A DNA stretch of 51,252 nucleotides. It comes from Sorangiineae bacterium NIC37A_2 (lineage in GTDB: Bacteria > Myxococcota_A > Polyangia > Polyangiales > Polyangiaceae). Positions 1,825 to 51,252 of the stretch are shown one piece after another. The notes below the pieces were generated by a model. The model worked only from the letters and a program-made list of their open reading frames with translations, was not told the DNA's origin and made no database searches. The DNA is taken from the NCBI GenBank assembly GCA_002085155.1, contig NASX01000034.1:1-51252 (forward strand), read 5' to 3'. Numbering within the stretch: the stretch's first letter is position 1; every line of letters begins with the position of its first letter. Both the position numbers and the translations under genes were made by a program.

Positions 1825-4800
1825 ATGTTCCAGATTTCTCGGCTCGCGCGTCACGGTTTCTCTGCGTCGTTGGTGCTCGTCTCGGTGCTCGCCTCTGCTT
1901 GTGGGCGGGACGTGGAAGGGCCACCTGGGAAGGACCCGAGCGACCCCAGCGATCCGAAGATCGGTTCGACCTCCTTCATTTCGTCCCCGCCGGGGTCGGC
2001 GGGACGCGGAGGGGTGCAGGGTGACGACGGCGACCTCAGCGCTGGCGCTGGAGGATCGACCAGCGCGCCGAACGATGGCGGCGCTGAAGGGCCTGGCGCG
2101 GATCCGGCCCGCGCCATCGCAGAAGCGGACATCATCAAGCTCGACGGCTCGAAACTCTACGCCCTCTCCCGCTACTCTGGTCTTACCATCATCGATATCA
2201 AAAATCCGGCAAAACTTGCCCTTCTGGGGAACTATAAGGCGAGCGGGACGCCCTTTGAAATGTACGTCGAAGGGGAGCGCGTCTATGTGATGTACAATGG
2301 CTACGGCTCGTACCTGTACGACGAAGAGACGGAGAGCTACAGCTACGAAGTCGTGAGCCGCATTGAGGCGCTCGACCTGTCGAACGCTGGCTCCCCGCGC
2401 CTCCTCGGCGCTCATGACGTGCCCGGCGAGCTCTCCGACTCGCGGAAGGTGGGCGACGTGCTTTATCTCGTGGCCTACGAGAACGGATATTGCTGGGGCT
2501 GCCTCGCCAACACTCCGAACACGAACGTTGTGTCCTTCAACGTGAGCAATCCGGACGAGTTCGCGCTCATTGACCAGCTCCGCATCGGCGCCGAGGAAGG
2601 CGCCTATTACGGCAAGAGGAGCATCGCGGTGACCGAGAAGCGCATCTACATCTCAGGTCAGGACTGGGGCGGTGAGGATCACGGCGTCGCCGACGTGGTG
2701 GATATCTCGGACCCCGATGGCGATCTGAAGCTCGGAGCGCGCTTCCGCTTGGCGGGACCTGTGCAGAGCCGCTGGCAGATGGACGAGCATGGCGGCATCT
2801 TCCGAACGGTCACTCAGCCGGGATCTGCTTGGGGTTCGACAGAAGCGCCACCGGTCATCGAGACCTTTGAGGTCGTCTCTTCGAACGAGGTGAACAAACT
2901 CGGGTCCCTGGAGGTGACGCTGCCGCGTCCGGAAGCGCTCCGTTCAGCGCGCTTCGACGGGGATCGCGCTTTCGCGATCACCTTCGAGAGAACTGACCCT
3001 CTCTTCACCTTCGACTTGAGCGATCCGTCAGCTCCCCGTCAGCTCGGTGAGCTCGAGATCCCCGGCTGGGTCTATCACATGGAGCCCCGCGGCGATCGCA
3101 TCTACGCGCTCGGCTTCGAGGACGGTAACGAAGGCGGCGCGCTGCATGTCTCGCTTTTTGATGTCTCCGAGCTCAGCGAGCCCAAACAGCTCGCTCGCGT
3201 GAACTTCGGGGGACGCTGGGCGAATTTCGCCGAGGACCAGGACCGCATCCACAAAGCCTTCAACATCATGTCGGACGAAGGTCTGATCCTCGTGCCGTAC
3301 GCGGGATGGGATTACGATGAAGGACAGAGCGAGTGCTCTTACGGGAGATACGAGAGCGGGATCCAGCTCGTCGACATGACGGAAGACAGTCTCGAGCTGC
3401 GCGGCGTCGCGCCTCAGGTCGGCGAAGCGCGCCGAGGCTTCATGGCGGAAGGAGCGCTGTTTGCGGTCTCGGACAACGCCGTGCAGACCTTCGACATCTC
3501 AGATCGCGATGAACCACAGGCGCTCGACATGCTCGAGACCGCGCGCAACATCGCGACCACGCGCGTCATGGGCGACACGATGCTCCGCTTCGGGTCGGAC
3601 TGGTGGACCGGACGCACTGTCCTCGACTTCGTTTCTCTCACCGACGTCGACGTCGCTGAGCCGCTCGGAGAGCTCGATCTCTCGGCCGTCGCTCCCACGG
3701 GCGATACCTGCGAAAGGCAGTCCTATTGGGAGGGGAGCGTCTACGTTCACGGCGACTACGCTTACGTCCCGCAGCGCATCTACAGCTCAGTCGCGAGTCC
3801 CGACGGGAAGAGCTACCGGCAGTATCTGCGGTTTTACGTCGTGGATCTGAGCGACCGGAGTGCCCCGCAGGTGGTGCGAGCGTTCTCGGTCGCAGCGGAT
3901 GACGGCGGCGAGGGGATTCTTGGTATCACGCTGACGGACAGCGCTTTGCTCGTCGGGCGTACGAAGGGTTACTACCGATACGACGATCAAGGAAATCCGG
4001 CCGAGACGCCGACATTTAGCTACGACGTCTTCTCTCTCTCGGATCCTGCTCGTCCGAAGCTGGTCTCTACGCTTGAGGTGCCGCATGCGCTCTCAGGCGG
4101 AGGGTTCGGATACAACATCTCCGGGTGTGTGGTCGACGTCGGATTCGGCTTCTGGCGCGGGTATGGTTACGGCGGTCAGGTGCTTGTCTCCGGCGATATC
4201 GTCGCGAGCCAACACGCCGTGCCTCTCGAAGACGGGTCGGGTCGCGTTCGCTACTATCTCGACCGCATCGACGTGAGTGACCCGGAAAATCCAAAGCTCC
4301 TCCCCGAGGTGAATATCCCGGGGAATGTGGTGGACTTTGACGCTGGCGCGGGGCGCATCGTCACGATCGACCATGACATTCGTTCGACGCAGCCGGGGCC
4401 TCGCGGTTGCGACTATGGGTGGCTCGAGAGCGGAGTGTGCACGCGTTACATTCGGAGCCTGAACACTCTCGAGCTCTCCGGCGACGTGGCGACGCTCCGG
4501 AGCCGCCTTGAGATCGACGGTGAAGACGAACGCGGCCATTTTGGTGCGGGCCAGATCGCGGTCGGAGGCGACCGTATCTTCGTCCAACGGACGACCCAGA
4601 CGGGCGACGGCTACGATCAAGAAATGCAGATCTTCGCCCTGAGCGGGAGCGCTAGGCTCAGCGATTTGGGTTCAGTCGAGCTAGAACGGAACGGCTGGGG
4701 GAGCCTGTACGCGCGCGGAGGACGGGGCTTCTTCCACACGAGCGGCCGCATGCTCGAAATCGACGCGCGAGACCCGGACGAGCTCAAGACCAAGACCCAC

Positions 4801-13573: not shown

Positions 13574-14095
13574 ATGACGCACGGACACGTCTCTTCGGAG
13601 CCGGGTTCAAAAAAGCGGGTGACCGCGGCAGAGCTGCGGGAAATCGGCCTCTTTGGAGCGCTGTCGGAGCCGGTGCTCGAGGATCTGGCGGGCTCGCTCG
13701 AGGTGATCGAAGTGCCTCCCGGGACCTATCTCTTCCGCGAAGGTGACCTCGGAGACGCGATGTACGTCGTGCTCCAGGGCGACATCGAGATCGAGAAGCA
13801 GAGCAAGAACGGGAGCGAGGTGCGCGTGGCTGTGCTCGGACCTCGCGACTGGTTCGGTGAGATGAGCATCATCGACGTACAGAAGCGCTCGGCGACGGTG
13901 CTCGCCGCCTCCCCCGCCACTCTCATTCGCATCACACCGCGGGATCTCGATCGGCTCTATCGAACCGATGTGAAGACCTACGCGCTGATCATTTTGAACA
14001 TGGCGCGCGAGATGAGCCGGCGACTGCGCGTGGCAGACGGCATGATGGCCGACATGGTCGCAAATCCCGACTCGTGGATTTGGCGCCGACCCTGA
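13574..14095 (+). CDS. Cyclic-nucleotide-binding domain protein
   Basis: 173 residues. I choose ATG 13574 because GGAGGAG at 13564-13570 is a good ribosome-binding site for it; an in-frame ATG at 13562 would add four residues. Residues about 25-140 form one cNMP-binding beta-roll: PPGTYLFREGDLGDAMYVVLQG, then the phosphate-binding cassette FGEMSIIDVQKRSATV with the Glu and Arg that contact cyclic nucleotides. There is no DNA-binding HTH domain; the C-terminus is only a helix (NMAREMSRRLRVADGMM). It may be a stand-alone sensor or regulatory subunit acting on a partner protein. Confidence 0.88.
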   Translation: MTHGHVSSEPGSKKRVTAAELREIGLFGALSEPVLEDLAGSLEVIEVPPGTYLFREGDLGDAMYVVLQGDIEIEKQSKNGSEVRVAVLGPRDWFGEMSIIDVQKRSATVLAASPATLIRITPRDLDRLYRTDVKTYALIILNMAREMSRRLRVADGMMADMVANPDSWIWRRP

Positions 14096-14119
14096 GCGGT
14101 CAGGCTTCCGCGCTCAGGG
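14090..14119. terminator. Inverted repeat between convergent genes
   Basis: CCCTGAGCG (14090-14098) and CGCTCAGGG (14111-14119) form a perfect 9-bp stem with a 12-base loop. It spans the stop of the cNMP-binding gene and the stop of the convergent lipoprotein gene, so it is a likely bidirectional terminator without a T-run. Confidence 0.55.
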
Positions 14120-14629
14120 GAAGAGCCAGGGGGGCGCTTCCCCCGCGTCCTGATCGTCCTCACCCGAGGCGCCCCCCATGTCCCCGGCGCCACCCGTAGA
14201 GGTCCAGCCTCCTGACCCATCCGAGCCGCCGGACGCTGGGTAACCGCCGCTGCCCGCGGGGCTTCCTCCCCATCCAAGCCAACCACCCGAGCCCCAAAAG
14301 CCGCCCGAACCGGGCGCTGCGCCGGCGCCGCCTCCGCCAACACTCGCCTCGCCTGCGAGCCCGAGAGATCCTCCCGAGCCCGGACCACCGTTGGTTCCCC
14401 CTACTCCAGCCTTGGCACCACCGGATCCGGGCCGCCAAGGCGTAAGTGCGCCTCCTGCGCCGGGTACGAGGCCATCGTCATTCGACGGAGCGGAGTCGTC
14501 TCCTCCGGTGATCGGCGGGGGCTTCTTATCGTTCGTGGGGAGGTCGGCGATCGGATTCAAGCCACAGGAGAGGGCGATGCCGCCCGTCAGGCTCATCATC
14601 GTCCAGGCCCGAATCCTTCTCGCCTTCAC
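14114..14629 (-). CDS. Gly/Ser-rich lipoprotein, member 1 of a three-gene cluster
   Basis: 171 residues. GTG 14629 is favoured over the in-frame GTG 14644 because a purine-rich GAGGGGG lies at the right distance before it. The signal is basic then hydrophobic, ending in ALSC with Cys22 as lipidation site. Directly after the Cys comes GLNPIADLP, matching CALSPIPELP and CALSPIQDLP in the two genes upstream. The rest is low-complexity Gly/Ser/Ala/Pro with scattered Trp and Thr, presumably a flexible surface or periplasmic tail, ending in an acidic EDDQDAGEAPP. Function unknown. Transcribed in the same direction as its two relatives, 18 bases after the second. Confidence 0.75.
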   Translation of the reverse strand: MKARRIRAWTMMSLTGGIALSCGLNPIADLPTNDKKPPPITGGDDSAPSNDDGLVPGAGGALTPWRPGSGGAKAGVGGTNGGPGSGGSLGLAGEASVGGGGAGAAPGSGGFWGSGGWLGWGGSPAGSGGYPASGGSDGSGGWTSTGGAGDMGGASGEDDQDAGEAPPWLFP

Positions 14630-14647
14630 TGCGCTCCCCCTCACTGT

Positions 14648-14935
14648 TTAACGGTCGGCCTCTCCGCCTTGTCCTCCGAGAAGCGGAGCCTCTCCGCCTC
14701 CTCCGAGAGAGTCAGGACCTCCGCCCGACGCAGGTGTACCATCTGACCCTGCTGCGCCCGCCTCAGAAACGCCGCCTGCCCCCGGGGCGCTACCGCCGGC
14801 CGACGAGCCGCCGCCAATGCCCCCGTCGTCGTGCGGAAGCTCGGGAATCGGCGAGAGCGCGCAGCCGACCGCCCACAGGCAGCCACCTGCTGCCACGAGG
14901 AGACCGAGGCCCCGCGCATTTTGCCTTCGCACCAT
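14648..14935 (-). CDS. Gly/Ser-rich lipoprotein, member 2 of a three-gene cluster
   Basis: 95 residues from ATG 14935; an upstream in-frame start at 14971 would add 12 residues before the basic region and is less likely. The signal ends in AVGC (Cys25), followed at once by ALSPIPELP and then a Gly/Ser/Ala-rich tail of about 60 residues with almost no secondary-structure-forming residues. It shares the C-x-L-x-P-I-x-(D/E)-L-P head with its neighbours. Function unknown; probably a surface-exposed or periplasmic disordered lipoprotein. Between it and member 3 lies the hairpin repeat array at 15125-15365. Confidence 0.72.
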   Translation of the reverse strand: MVRRQNARGLGLLVAAGGCLWAVGCALSPIPELPHDDGGIGGGSSAGGSAPGAGGVSEAGAAGSDGTPASGGGPDSLGGGGEAPLLGGQGGEADR

Positions 14936-15124
14936 CTTGCAAAAAACTCCCGCCCCCACTCGAAGGCGCATTCAGCGTAGCAAGAACATGGCCAATTCGC
15001 TCGCCTGAGTCCGCCCGTACAGCATCTTCGCCTGCAGCCCGTCCTTTTGGCCCCGGTCCATCACTTCCAGCTGAGCCCTCCCGAGCCTTCGCCTGAACGC
15101 ACCCCCCACACATGAGCCCGACGT

Positions 15125-15365
15125 AGCCCCCCCGCGCGCTCCGCGCGCCGCCGGCGCTTCGCGCCTCCAGGCCCCCCGCGCGCTCCGCGCGCCTACGGCG
15201 CTTCGCGCCTCCAGCCCCCCCGCGCGCTCCGCGCGCCTACGGCGCTTCGCGCCTCCCAGCCCCCCCGCGCGCTCCGCGCGCCTACGGCGCTTCGCGCCTA
15301 CGGCGCTTCGCGCCTCCCAGCCCCCCCGCGCGCTCCGCGCGCCTACGGCGCTTCGCGCCTACGGC
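15125..15365. repeat. Array of five GC-rich units, each with two nested hairpins
   Basis: Five units: 15125-15168, 15169-15212, 15213-15257, 15258-15318 and 15319-15365. Each has a run of six or seven C, then GCGCGCTCCGCGCGC (6-bp stem, 3-base loop), a short spacer (TACG in four units, CGCC-like in the first), then GGCGCTTCGCGCC (5-bp stem, TTC loop), usually closed by TCC or TCCC. Unit 4 carries a second copy of the GGCGC hairpin. The array lies just downstream of the minus-strand lipoprotein gene ending at 15359 and supplies that gene's stop codon. It contains no gene. The units abut without spacers, unlike CRISPR. Confidence 0.9.
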
Positions 15366-15649
15366 TTGGCCCCGCCGCCTCCGAGCAGAACCTCGACCGG
15401 TCGCGTATCCTGGCCCCCGGCAGCCTCCTGGCCTCCGGTGGCGCTCCCGCCGCTCCCAGAGGGGGGATTGTCGCCGATCAGGCCGTCGTCGTCACTGCCC
15501 GACCCCGGGCCCGGCACGTCGAGTCCCCCGTTCCCGCCCTTCCCGGAATCGCCCTCGCCCCGCGTTGGAAGGTCCTGGATCGGCGAGAGGGCACAGCCGA
15601 CAGCAGTCGCGCCTGCGAGAACTGCGATCCAAGGGAGACGCCGCGCCAC
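15359..15649 (-). CDS. Gly/Ser-rich lipoprotein, member 3 of a three-gene cluster
   Basis: 96 residues from GTG 15649. The signal MARRLPWIAVLAGATAVGC puts the lipidated Cys at 19, followed by ALSPIQDLP and an acidic, Gly/Ser-rich tail. The last codons (GGGGAKP, then TAG) run into the hairpin repeat array, whose CTA supplies the stop. It is the most upstream of the three related genes and would be transcribed first. A 22-base inverted repeat GTGCCAG-N8-CTGGCAC (15651-15672) touches the start codon. Function unknown; the shared head suggests the family was made by tandem duplication. Confidence 0.72.
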   Translation of the reverse strand: MARRLPWIAVLAGATAVGCALSPIQDLPTRGEGDSGKGGNGGLDVPGPGSGSDDDGLIGDNPPSGSGGSATGGQEAAGGQDTRPVEVLLGGGGAKP

Positions 15650-15650
15650 C

Positions 15651-15672
15651 GTGCCAGTTTAACGCCTGGCAC
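15651..15672. promoter_or_regulatory. Inverted repeat GTGCCAG-N8-CTGGCAC at the lipoprotein start
   Basis: The two 7-base arms (15651-15657 and 15666-15672) are perfect complements and end one base from the GTG start of the minus-strand lipoprotein gene. As RNA it would form a hairpin over the ribosome-binding region; as DNA it has the size of an operator. The TGGCACAA half also recurs at 15796-15803 and 15806-15813. Confidence 0.4.
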
Positions 15673-15794
15673 AAGGAGATTCCCACCGGTCACCTCAATT
15701 TTGCGGAAATGGACGAGAGCGGAGGAAGGACATCAAAGAAATCTCGTACAGAAAGATTTGGGCATCGAGCGAGCGGCCGGAATCGGAGCTCTCC

Positions 15795-15814
15795 GTGGCA
15801 CAACGTGGCACAAC
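15795..15814. repeat. Tandem 10-bp repeat GTGGCACAAC
   Basis: Two exact head-to-tail copies (15795-15804 and 15805-15814), in the 274-base gap between tyrA and the lipoprotein gene. They share the TGGCACA core with the inverted repeat at 15651-15672, so both may be sites for the same protein. The 10-base period would place them on the same face of the helix. No coding sequence is supported in this gap. Confidence 0.4.
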
Positions 15815-15883
15815 TTCGGATCCGCTTGTCACACCGCCGCACCTCGAGCTCGTCCGAGCGGCGGTTCGATGAGCCGTGGCTCC

Positions 15884-15961
15884 GGGACTCTGAGAGCTCA
15901 CCGCGAAGGGGGACTCTGAGAGCTCACCGCGAAGGGGGACTCTGAGAGCTCACCGCGAAGG
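15884..15961. repeat. Three tandem copies of a 26-bp unit at the 3' end of tyrA
   Basis: Units at 15884-15909, 15910-15935 and 15936-15961, each beginning GGGACTCTGAGAGCTCACCG, are essentially identical. The most upstream copy in the sense of tyrA (15936-15961) is coding. Because 26 is not a multiple of three, the second copy is read in another frame and supplies the stop codon. Changes in copy number here would alter the C-terminus only slightly. Confidence 0.92.
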
Positions 15962-16829
15962 CGCGCAGAAGCTCGTCTTGCGGCAGGCTTTGCTCAGAGC
16001 CTCGCTTGGTGCGCCGCGCGCGCTCGAGGAGCTTGAGGGCTTCCTCGGCGTCTCCTCTGCGCAAGGCCGCGGCCACCGCGTCGAGCTCCGCCGAGAGCAA
16101 CCCGAGCACTTCGGCGATGGCGCTGCCGTTGGTCTCGAAGATATCTCGCCAGATCCCCTCGGCTCCTCCCGCGACGCGGGTCGCGGAGGCAAAACCGGGC
16201 CCGGCCGCGGCCGTCGCGTCGCGCTCAGCAGCGAGCGCCGCGAGGGCGCTCGCGTAGAGCTGGGGAACGTGGCTCGTGAGCGCGACGCTCTGGTCGTGAG
16301 CGCTCGCGTCGAGCTCAACAATGATCGCGCCGAGGCCTCGAGCGAGCTCGATGACCTTTGCTTGGGCACTTTTCGCAGCGTCGGGAGAGCAAAGGAGCCA
16401 GCGCTTATCGACGAAGAGGTCCGGTGAGGCATGGATAAGACCTCCCGCGGGGTGCCCGGCCATGGGATGCCCCGCGACGAACCGCTCGGCTCCGGGGTGC
16501 TTCTCCGCCGCGCGAACGATGAGCTCTTTCGTGGAGCCCGCGTCAGTAACAACAGCTCCACTGGAAAGGGCACGGGGCAGCTCGGCGATGATGGAGTGAA
16601 CCGGGCAGGCCAGGACGATGAGCTCCGAAGCCTCGTAAGCGCGCGAAACAGCGCGCTCGTCGGACGCCGCGAGCCACTCGTCAGCGACGCGGTCTCGCTC
16701 AGAAGGCGTGTATTTTTGGCCTCCGTTCCGGTCGATCGCGACCACCCGCCGCGCGAGTCCGCGGGCTTTGGCTCCAAGAGCAATGGAGCCGCCGATCAAA
16801 CCCGGACCGAAGATGGTGAGCTGTTCCAC
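15924..16829 (-). CDS. tyrA: Prephenate dehydrogenase
   Basis: 301 residues from GTG 16829. Oxidatively decarboxylates prephenate to 4-hydroxyphenylpyruvate in tyrosine synthesis, in the cytoplasm; arogenate could be an alternative substrate. The dinucleotide-binding loop is FGPGLIGGSIALG (residues about 7-19), followed by the acidic strand end AIDR. VTDAGSTKELIV, AGHPMAGH and the catalytic His in LTSHVPQL are all present. No chorismate mutase or ACT domain is fused. The last dozen residues (FAVSSQSPPSR) are encoded by a 26-bp tandem repeat, so the C-terminus has been rewritten by the duplication. Divergent from the kinase gene. Confidence 0.92.
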   Translation of the reverse strand: MEQLTIFGPGLIGGSIALGAKARGLARRVVAIDRNGGQKYTPSERDRVADEWLAASDERAVSRAYEASELIVLACPVHSIIAELPRALSSGAVVTDAGSTKELIVRAAEKHPGAERFVAGHPMAGHPAGGLIHASPDLFVDKRWLLCSPDAAKSAQAKVIELARGLGAIIVELDASAHDQSVALTSHVPQLYASALAALAAERDATAAAGPGFASATRVAGGAEGIWRDIFETNGSAIAEVLGLLSAELDAVAAALRRGDAEEALKLLERARRTKRGSEQSLPQDELLRAFAVSSQSPPSR

Positions 16830-17236
16830 GCCGCTCGGGCATTTCCCACGAGGGGGCTCTTGTCCGCAAGCGCGCGGCAGGGAGCGGCCTGGCTCGCCTG
16901 GCCTCGCGGGAACGCAGCTTCGTTACGTCCCGGGAGAGGCGCCGCCCGAGGGGCGTCGGGTCGAGGGTTTTCGGGATGTTGGGTGAAGGGGCTGGCGAAA
17001 TGAGAGGGTTTTTTGTGACCGCGTCCGGCCGAAACGTGAAGGGCGAAGCCGAGGTGGTGCGCGGGTTCACAGGGGCCCCACGGGCTCACATGGGCGTCGA
17101 GACGAAGGGGCCAAGGAGGGGCCCGAGGGCAAAAGGCAATGGAAAGAATTGCGCGAAGCCGACTCTCGGCGGTAGCCTGCCGAATAGGCGCTTGGTGCCG
17201 CCGCTCTGCGAGGGCAGAGCCTTTTCTTCGAACTCG
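16830..17236. other. 407-base divergent intergenic region (tyrA / kinase)
   Basis: No gene is supported here. The kinase frame is open upstream to 16976, but the extra sequence is Gly/Arg-rich and lacks any kinase feature, so I treat it as leader. It should hold the promoters for tyrA and the kinase operon. A TTGCGC (17149-17154) and TAGCCT (17173-17178) pair with 18-base spacing is the only candidate I see and it is weak. Confidence 0.4.
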
Positions 17237-50081: not shown

Positions 50082-50250
50082 GGGGAGAGCGGACGTTACA
50101 GCGCTCCGTCGCTCGGGACCAACCGAGAGCTTTCCACGCGGACCGCCGACGCGGACGAAGGGGACGTCGTGAAGCGCTTTTTTTAGGGCCCCGGTCCATC
50201 ACCTCCATCTTCGACCGACCGAGCCTTTGTGGGGGCGCGCCGCCTCGGGA

Positions 50251-50276
50251 GGCGAGCGCCGCACGCGGCGCTCGCC
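50251..50276 (-). terminator. 12-bp perfect GC hairpin after the map gene
   Basis: GGCGAGCGCCGC (50251-50262) and GCGGCGCTCGCC (50265-50276) are perfect complements with a 2-base centre (an 11-bp stem with a tetraloop in practice). It lies 20 bases after the stop of the minus-strand map gene. No T-run follows, so termination would not be classical intrinsic. A second small stem (50241-50246 with 50249-50254) overlaps it. Nothing else is recognisable in 50082-50296. Confidence 0.65.
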
Positions 50277-51049: not shown

Positions 51050-51151
51050 GAGCCGAGGGTGCGCGGCCGCGCGGCGCGCGTCGAATACCATTTTTGTATC
51101 GGAGGACGCGGCTTGGTTCTTTGGGTTCGGGCAAGGCGCGCGGGGGGTGGC

Positions 51152-51252
51152 GGATTCGAGCAGAGCGCGCGCGGTGGGCGCGGAGGCCGGGGGGTAGGGT
51201 GGATTCGAGCAGAGCGCGCGCGGTGGGCGCGGAGGCCGGGGGGTAGGGTGGA
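51152..51252. repeat. 49-bp tandem repeat, running off the right edge
   Basis: Two identical 49-bp units (51152-51200 and 51201-51249), each beginning GGATTCGAGCAGAGCGCG, and the start of a third (51250-51252). The unit is rich in G and C with purine-rich strings. It lies about 100 bases upstream of the map start. The array probably extends beyond the window, so its length is unknown. Confidence 0.9.

Follow-up and report, generated by a model that had tools for sequence, protein, structure and literature searches.

The tandem array at positions 15125-15365 of the 51,252-nucleotide stretch of DNA analysed here (the window) is probably a minisatellite of GC-rich hairpins that grew locally in the tail belonging to a single copy of a dispersed repeat, which so far is known from one genome. 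Taken alone, the array is an ordinary kind of thing, and the wider interest lies in the dispersed repeat that adjoins it. The conserved part of this repeat, hereafter the head, lies at 15049-15108, beyond the limits of the original prediction, which had described the array from the letters alone; the array trails it, and some other copies of the repeat possess hairpin tails of their own, different from this one. The host genome (5.0 Mb in 150 contigs, 98% complete) is the single genome analysed for its species.

The array, to which no strand is assigned, is composed of five head-to-tail units, located at 15125-15168, 15169-15212, 15213-15257, 15258-15318 (in which the second hairpin is doubled) and 15319-15365 (cut off at the edge), with lengths of 44, 44, 45 and 61 bases plus the cut-off 47. 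All its hairpins are perfect: GCGCGCTCCGCGCGC is found five times (exact matches at 15134, 15178, 15222, 15267 and 15328) and GGCGCTTCGCGCC six times (15153, 15197, 15241, 15286, 15302 and 15347), with no exact match of either outside the array in the 51,252-nt window; genome-wide, GGCGCTTCGCGCC has 11 occurrences, six of which are these. Tandem Repeats Finder describes the region as a 44 bp x 4.0 repeat with 96% matches and a score of 320 (15125-15299) and as a 61 bp x 2.2 repeat with 100% matches (15232-15365). The predicted series of five units with two hairpins is thus borne out in coordinates and in content, and the array is not a chance product. The extra second hairpin that had been noticed in unit 4 is present as well, together with the partial sub-duplication, with the correction that the doubled stretch recurs into unit 5, where the extra hairpin restarts with a 61-bp period at 100% identity, so that the doubled unit 4 itself was apparently duplicated. 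Near-identical tandem units of about 10-100 bp, as in minisatellites, are what the array consists of. Compared with dinucleotide shuffles, its single-strand fold lies lower by about 2 sd (z -1.96 and -2.03), a weak departure because comparably GC-rich DNA generally folds well; the unusual property of the array is its regularity, not its fold energy. Two terminator-like sites (a GC hairpin followed by a T-run) occur in 14000-16500, neither of them inside the array.

The original prediction had also called for a search of the genome and its relatives, and the array unit appears private among the matches scored. In particular, no near-copy of the whole array was found in its own genome among the best 40 of 65 candidates, where the next matches, three in number and located on contigs C98 and C21, are 66-70% identical and correspond to different GC-rich sequences with different units; likewise, none was found in 96 relatives among the best 8 candidates scored per genome. 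The array as a query gives matches at E<=0.001 in 40 of 97 genomes (its own plus the 96 relatives, best 8 candidates per genome), those outside its own genome being short or low-identity GC-rich stretches with a best E of 7e-9. The original prediction had known of no named repeat family for this pair of hairpins; Rfam covariance models over 14000-17000 returned 0 matches at E<=1, and a plasmid sequence search returned no match.

As had been proposed, the array is placed between two lipoprotein-like ORFs of the ORF list, both on the minus strand: 15359-15649 (96 aa, motif VGCALSPIQDLP) and 14648-14971 (107 aa, VGCALSPIPELP), the head starting 77 bases beyond the listed start of the latter. A third lipoprotein-like ORF of this tandem (14114-14644, minus strand, 176 aa, LSCGLNPIADLP) is also listed, and none of the three has a match in Pfam or NCBIfam. 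The array does provide the stop codon of the 15359-15649 gene, a TAG at 15359-15361 on the minus strand, in the last spacer of the array. On the other hand, the idea that changes in copy number could alter the end of this gene is mostly not borne out: in-silico deletion of any single unit from 1 to 4, or of 15319-15359, leaves an ORF of 96 aa with the same end, and only the loss of the last 47 bases (15319-15365) changes it, to 106 aa. The stop is unaffected by the loss of a single one of units 1-4 because the last spacer is the edge of the array closest to the gene; consequently, the number of units would change the 3' untranslated region and not the protein. At 15884-15961, a perfect 26-bp x 3.0 tandem repeat extends into the 3' end of a prephenate-dehydrogenase-like ORF (15924-16829, minus strand), so that a second nearby array also provides the last codons of a gene.

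The head is a dispersed non-palindromic repeat made of a T-rich tract, GGCCCCGGYCCATCAC, a variable spacer, CCGAGCCTTC and a C-rich end, CTGAGCYCACCGCCTC. Two copies lie in the window, both on the plus strand. The first, TTTT followed by GGCCCCGGTCCATCAC and, further on, CCGAGCCTTC, spans 15045-15108 (15049-15108 without the TTTT), scores 56.3 bits to the family model and is followed 16 bp later by the array; the second, a T-rich tract plus head at 50178-50248, scores 51.4 bits and has a 26-base perfect hairpin in its tail at 50251-50276. The first block, GGCCCCGGTCCATCAC, is found at 84 places of the genome with at most two mismatches, as compared to 3 for a reversed control pattern. From these, 79 distinct places were examined (the other 5 all have 2 mismatches) and 75 were aligned, the 4 left out being those without GAGCCTT or GAGCC[TC]T; the invariance of the GAGCC letters in the alignment of 75 heads is due to this inclusion filter, and that of the first block, which was used for finding the copies, comes partly from selection. 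In an unfiltered test, exact GGCCCCGGYCCATCAC occurs at 71 places and the second block is in position in all 71, with 10 of 10 letters of CCGAGCCTTC matching in 44, 9 of 10 in 22 and 8 of 10 in 5, while at control offsets 100 bases further the match is mostly of 4 to 6 letters. No 14-mer is more widespread in a 451-kb sample of the genome than one from the first block; in this sample, 6 more, degenerate heads are detected at E<1e-4.

The 5' edge of the head is sharp, with unrelated upstream flanks, and its 3' edge fades after about 65 bases: pairwise head alignments have a median end at +60, and 277 of 2503 extend past +110. Conservation is block-wise and not uniform. At least six T are present in the 12 bases preceding the first block in 56 of 75 heads, as against 1.25% of background 12-mers. 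Considered as a structured RNA, the 75 heads give only 3 consensus pairs for the sense strand and 5 for the antisense strand with RNAalifold (energies of -1.1 and -6.3), and the predicted structure of the sense strand is weak. A protein-coding function of the head is disfavoured by single-base indels among copies. On contig C81 (2613-2983), two heads in inverted orientation enclose a long hairpin, the whole spanning 371 bp and looking REPIN-like.

With regard to the tails, perfect GC hairpins occur at 6.9/kb in the interval from +65 to +165 and at 5.1/kb from +165 to +265 (3.4 and 2.7 in composition-shuffled sequences), against 2.4-3.2/kb upstream of the heads; when the window copy, whose tail is the richest in hairpins among the 75, is left out, the two values are 6.4 and 4.7/kb. 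Similarly, arrays whose unit contains a GC hairpin are found in 8 of 68 tails, compared with 1 of 73 upstream, 0 of 65 far downstream and 1 of 73 far upstream (Fisher 0.015; pooled 0.0003), and in 7 of 67 tails without the window copy (0.028; pooled 0.0009), such arrays being missing from 60 of the 68 tails. When tandem arrays of any kind are counted, the difference is weak: they are present in 18 of 68 tails, in 12 of 73 flanks on the upstream side and in 6 of 65 regions far downstream. For some GC-rich arrays, the nearest perfect head is kilobases away. For the most part, different tails carry different array units. Local matches between tails number 26, many of them plain GC-rich sequence, and include one 51-base stretch, 88% identical, common to two tails of contig C98. 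These enrichments suggest that the array at 15125-15365 belongs to a set of hairpin arrays that have grown in place behind several of the heads. For 11 heads a contig end is encountered within 1.3 kb on the downstream side, and for 2 on the upstream side (p 0.011; two pairs among these have an end in common), which would be the outcome if the assembly broke in tail arrays. At the end of the window itself, 3' of its second head, there is a GC-rich tandem array with a 49-bp unit (51141-51252, no strand assigned), within which positions 51181-51252 coincide with positions 1-72 of contig C98. Because of this exact 72-base overlap, contigs C26 and C98 are probably chromosomal neighbours, and since the head at position 600 of C98 points back, heads point to the array at their junction from both sides. 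Downstream of another head, on contig C148 (locus L255, 4596-4971), a 185-bp x 2.0 duplication was observed, the first unit of which starts within the terminal 3' part of a tRNA-Ser gene (4528-4615).

The heads tend to follow genes. Specifically, 49 of 69 left neighbours are oriented toward the head, that is, they have it in sense orientation at their 3' side (p 6e-4), at a median of 75 bp past the gene end. For right neighbours a bias is not evident, 37 of 62 being oriented toward the head (p 0.16). Overlap with a called ORF is seen for 3 of 75 heads. The genes for this count came from a simple codon-score ORF caller by which the small lipoprotein ORFs of the window were missed, so that the first window copy was wrongly scored as sense; the corrected count is 48 of 69 (p 0.0016). 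This copy, in fact, is on the plus strand and both adjoining lipoprotein genes are on the minus strand, which places it outside the usual sense arrangement of the family.

So far, the head repeat looks confined to one species among those searched. The exact two-block pattern matches 64 times in its own genome; the 107 other genomes of the family, two congeneric ones among them, contain no match. The head profile gives weak and mostly partial matches in 17 of the 107, at no more than 24.5 bits versus 49-61.6 in its own genome (best 49 candidates per genome, under stricter filters). In a collection of 84,980 species, three unrelated stretches carry the two blocks (two in records of Mycolicibacterium iranicum, the third in a planctomycete), all without the T-tract, and among IMG/VR viral contigs the first block, as a 16-mer, has 15 matches, in none of which the second block is in place. 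Other dialects of the head were looked for in samples of the relatives G001 (465 kb), G055 (240 kb) and G006 (160 kb) and rejected: their commonest 12-mers are GC-rich words, which we take to be coding bias, spread over up to 15 bins in G001 (the head word occupies 14 bins in its own 451 kb). In the same samples, no 8-mer occurs more than twice after T-rich ends, against 9 times for GGCCCCGG in the own-genome sample, and the head profile on 194 kb of G001 has no match above 12.3 bits. A narrow literature search of open-licence papers returned, among titles and abstracts, no description of the head element or of Rho loss in this family.

The position of the heads raises the matter of how transcripts end in this bacterium. 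The Rho model TIGR00767 has no match above its cut-off in the genome (98% complete), the two weak matches being, by reading of the ORFs, a FliI-like ATPase and the ATP synthase beta subunit, and the independent model of the Rho RNA-binding domain, PF07497, has none. In the family, the two models detect Rho in the same 15 of 60 genomes, and both are negative in the genome under study, in both genus mates and in two single-contig genomes (G021 and G059). Presence or absence is uniform within each of the 11 genera sampled at least twice. It looks like Rho was lost across a large part of the family, a count on which draft assemblies and the reach of the models bear. In the 451-kb sample, 6 of 197 gene ends have an intrinsic-terminator-like site (0 in shuffled sequence). 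The T-run of the heads does not behave as the U-tract of such terminators: a hairpin precedes it in 8 of 75 heads versus a shuffled mean of 8.2, and this lack of excess means that the heads are not ordinary intrinsic terminators. It is scarcely credible, in addition, that the heads are Rho-utilisation cassettes, in which a C-rich unstructured head would load Rho after genes and the tail hairpins would protect the released end. The sense-strand C/G ratio over the head (2.07 and 1.92, dropping to 1.04 far downstream) and the weakly structured sense strand would suit this function; besides the two negative Rho models, however, no C excess is seen when the regions are anchored at gene ends, the ratio being 0.95-1.07 in 19 head-bearing intergenic regions and 0.93-1.04 in 116 headless ones.

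Several other explanations of the array have to be weighed against local growth behind a head. The one that deserves most attention is that the array is neutral junk, namely GC-rich intergenic slippage without effect, whose proximity to a head is incidental. It is quite possible, if short of probable: the unit is private among the matches scored, GC-rich arrays also occur away from heads and the fold z-scores are weak, but against it stands the enrichment of hairpins and hairpin arrays on the downstream side of the heads and not on the upstream side. We regard it as rather unlikely that the head serves a non-autonomous transposon as its recognised end, the repeat then being a selfish miniature mobile element whose copies are due to spread and not to function, with the array as a by-product. 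Such an origin would agree with the restriction to one species among those searched, with the sharp 5' edge and with the REPIN-like inverted pair on C81. It is opposed by the lack of a conserved second end, by the conservation of the head in blocks rather than uniformly, by the absence of any target-site duplication signal (mean longest shared word of 6.50 versus 6.52 in swapped flanks, 68 copies) and by the failure of a search limited to the Y1 family to find a transposase of that kind in the genome; moreover, between the heads of the other convergent pair examined, on C121, visual inspection showed a lipoprotein-like ORF and no transposase. Neither terminal inverted repeats nor two defined ends, as in a MITE, were found for the head, the 3' edge of which fades and few tails of which share sequence, and the comparison of ends and tails, the target-site duplication test and the inspection of C121 and C81 speak against the head as a MITE or as a two-ended or autonomous transposon.

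That the array is instead a REP-type repeat, a GTAG-tagged palindrome moved by RAYT, is very improbable. GTAG tags are a mark of REPs (PMC3733652), and on the minus strand a GTAG does stand immediately before the GCGCGCGGAGCGCGC hairpin in units 2-5. The two other defining features, dispersal and a transposase, fail: among the best 40 of 65 candidates the hairpin unit has no dispersed copies, the next matches in the genome being the 66-70% identical ones with a different unit, and PF01797 (Y1, IS200-like transposase) has 0 matches in the genome, 98% complete, while it is found in 5 of 14 control genomes. The REP-type element, which the original prediction had named as the case that would speak against it, is rejected on these grounds. 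An assembly artefact in the copy number of the array, finally, seems improbable. The number of units is that of a 150-contig draft assembly, whose contigs break within similar arrays, and the 241 bp of the array may exceed the read length; nevertheless, the units can be told apart (unit 1 by GCCGCCGG, unit 2 by AGGCC, unit 4 by its doubling) and the flanks are unique and on one contig.

Among known kinds of repeats, bacterial minisatellites or VNTRs with hairpin units resemble the array in their near-identical head-to-tail units, sub-unit duplication and intergenic location at a gene end. The difference is that the array lies beside a dispersed head whose other copies bear different arrays, and that it is known from one genome. 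With GTAG-REPs and BIMEs (RAYT/TnpA-REP), it has in common short intergenic GC hairpins, a GTAG at the hairpin and the proximity to gene ends, but its palindrome is not dispersed, RAYT was not found in the genome and the dispersed part is here non-palindromic. MITEs, including one of Porphyromonas gingivalis that reportedly contains an internal minisatellite, offer the likeness of a dispersed non-coding element tied to a minisatellite, from which the head differs in that a second end and a target-site duplication were not found for it.

According to the favoured explanation, a locally grown minisatellite in the tail of a dispersed repeat, tails would lengthen via replication slippage or unequal recombination, assisted by the hairpins, and by this growth in place each locus would build its own array. 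In the case of the lipoprotein gene on the minus strand (15359-15649), the array would be a 3' untranslated region with 11 hairpins directly after the stop, the most plausible effect of which would be to slow down the 3'-to-5' decay of the lipoprotein mRNA; variation in the number of units would alter the RNA rather than the protein. The weakest step of this proposal, which we advance tentatively and hold to be doubtful, is that the head could be a cis-acting site making or guarding transcript 3' ends.

A bolder and improbable possibility is that the species-specific combination of the T-tract, GGCCCCGGYCCATCAC, CCGAGCCTTC and the C-rich end, spread to the 3' ends of genes, might act there as a signal that works by its sequence and needs no hairpin, either halting RNA polymerase or fixing the 3' end of the transcript via a putative protein reader, in a lineage where Rho has apparently been lost and intrinsic terminators at gene ends are few; GC-hairpin tails, this array included, might then guard the RNA end or block opposing transcription. 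The interest of such a 3'-end signal stems from Rho being undetected and intrinsic terminators being few. The two genus mates are without Rho matches and without heads. Rho-less cyanobacteria have noncanonical transcript 3' ends and few gene ends with canonical terminators, transcript ending being an open question there (PMC13289151). The likeness to the present case is that of a lineage without Rho and with few canonical terminators at gene ends; no dispersed sequence element is mentioned in the abstract of that source, and the case described here is known from DNA alone. The 75 head loci would represent concrete and testable sites for transcript ending in a bacterium in which no Rho is detected and intrinsic terminators are few. 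Their density along the genome is uneven (contigs C9, C30 and C78 as against C98, C105 and C148), in that heads are few on certain large contigs and abundant on certain smaller ones.
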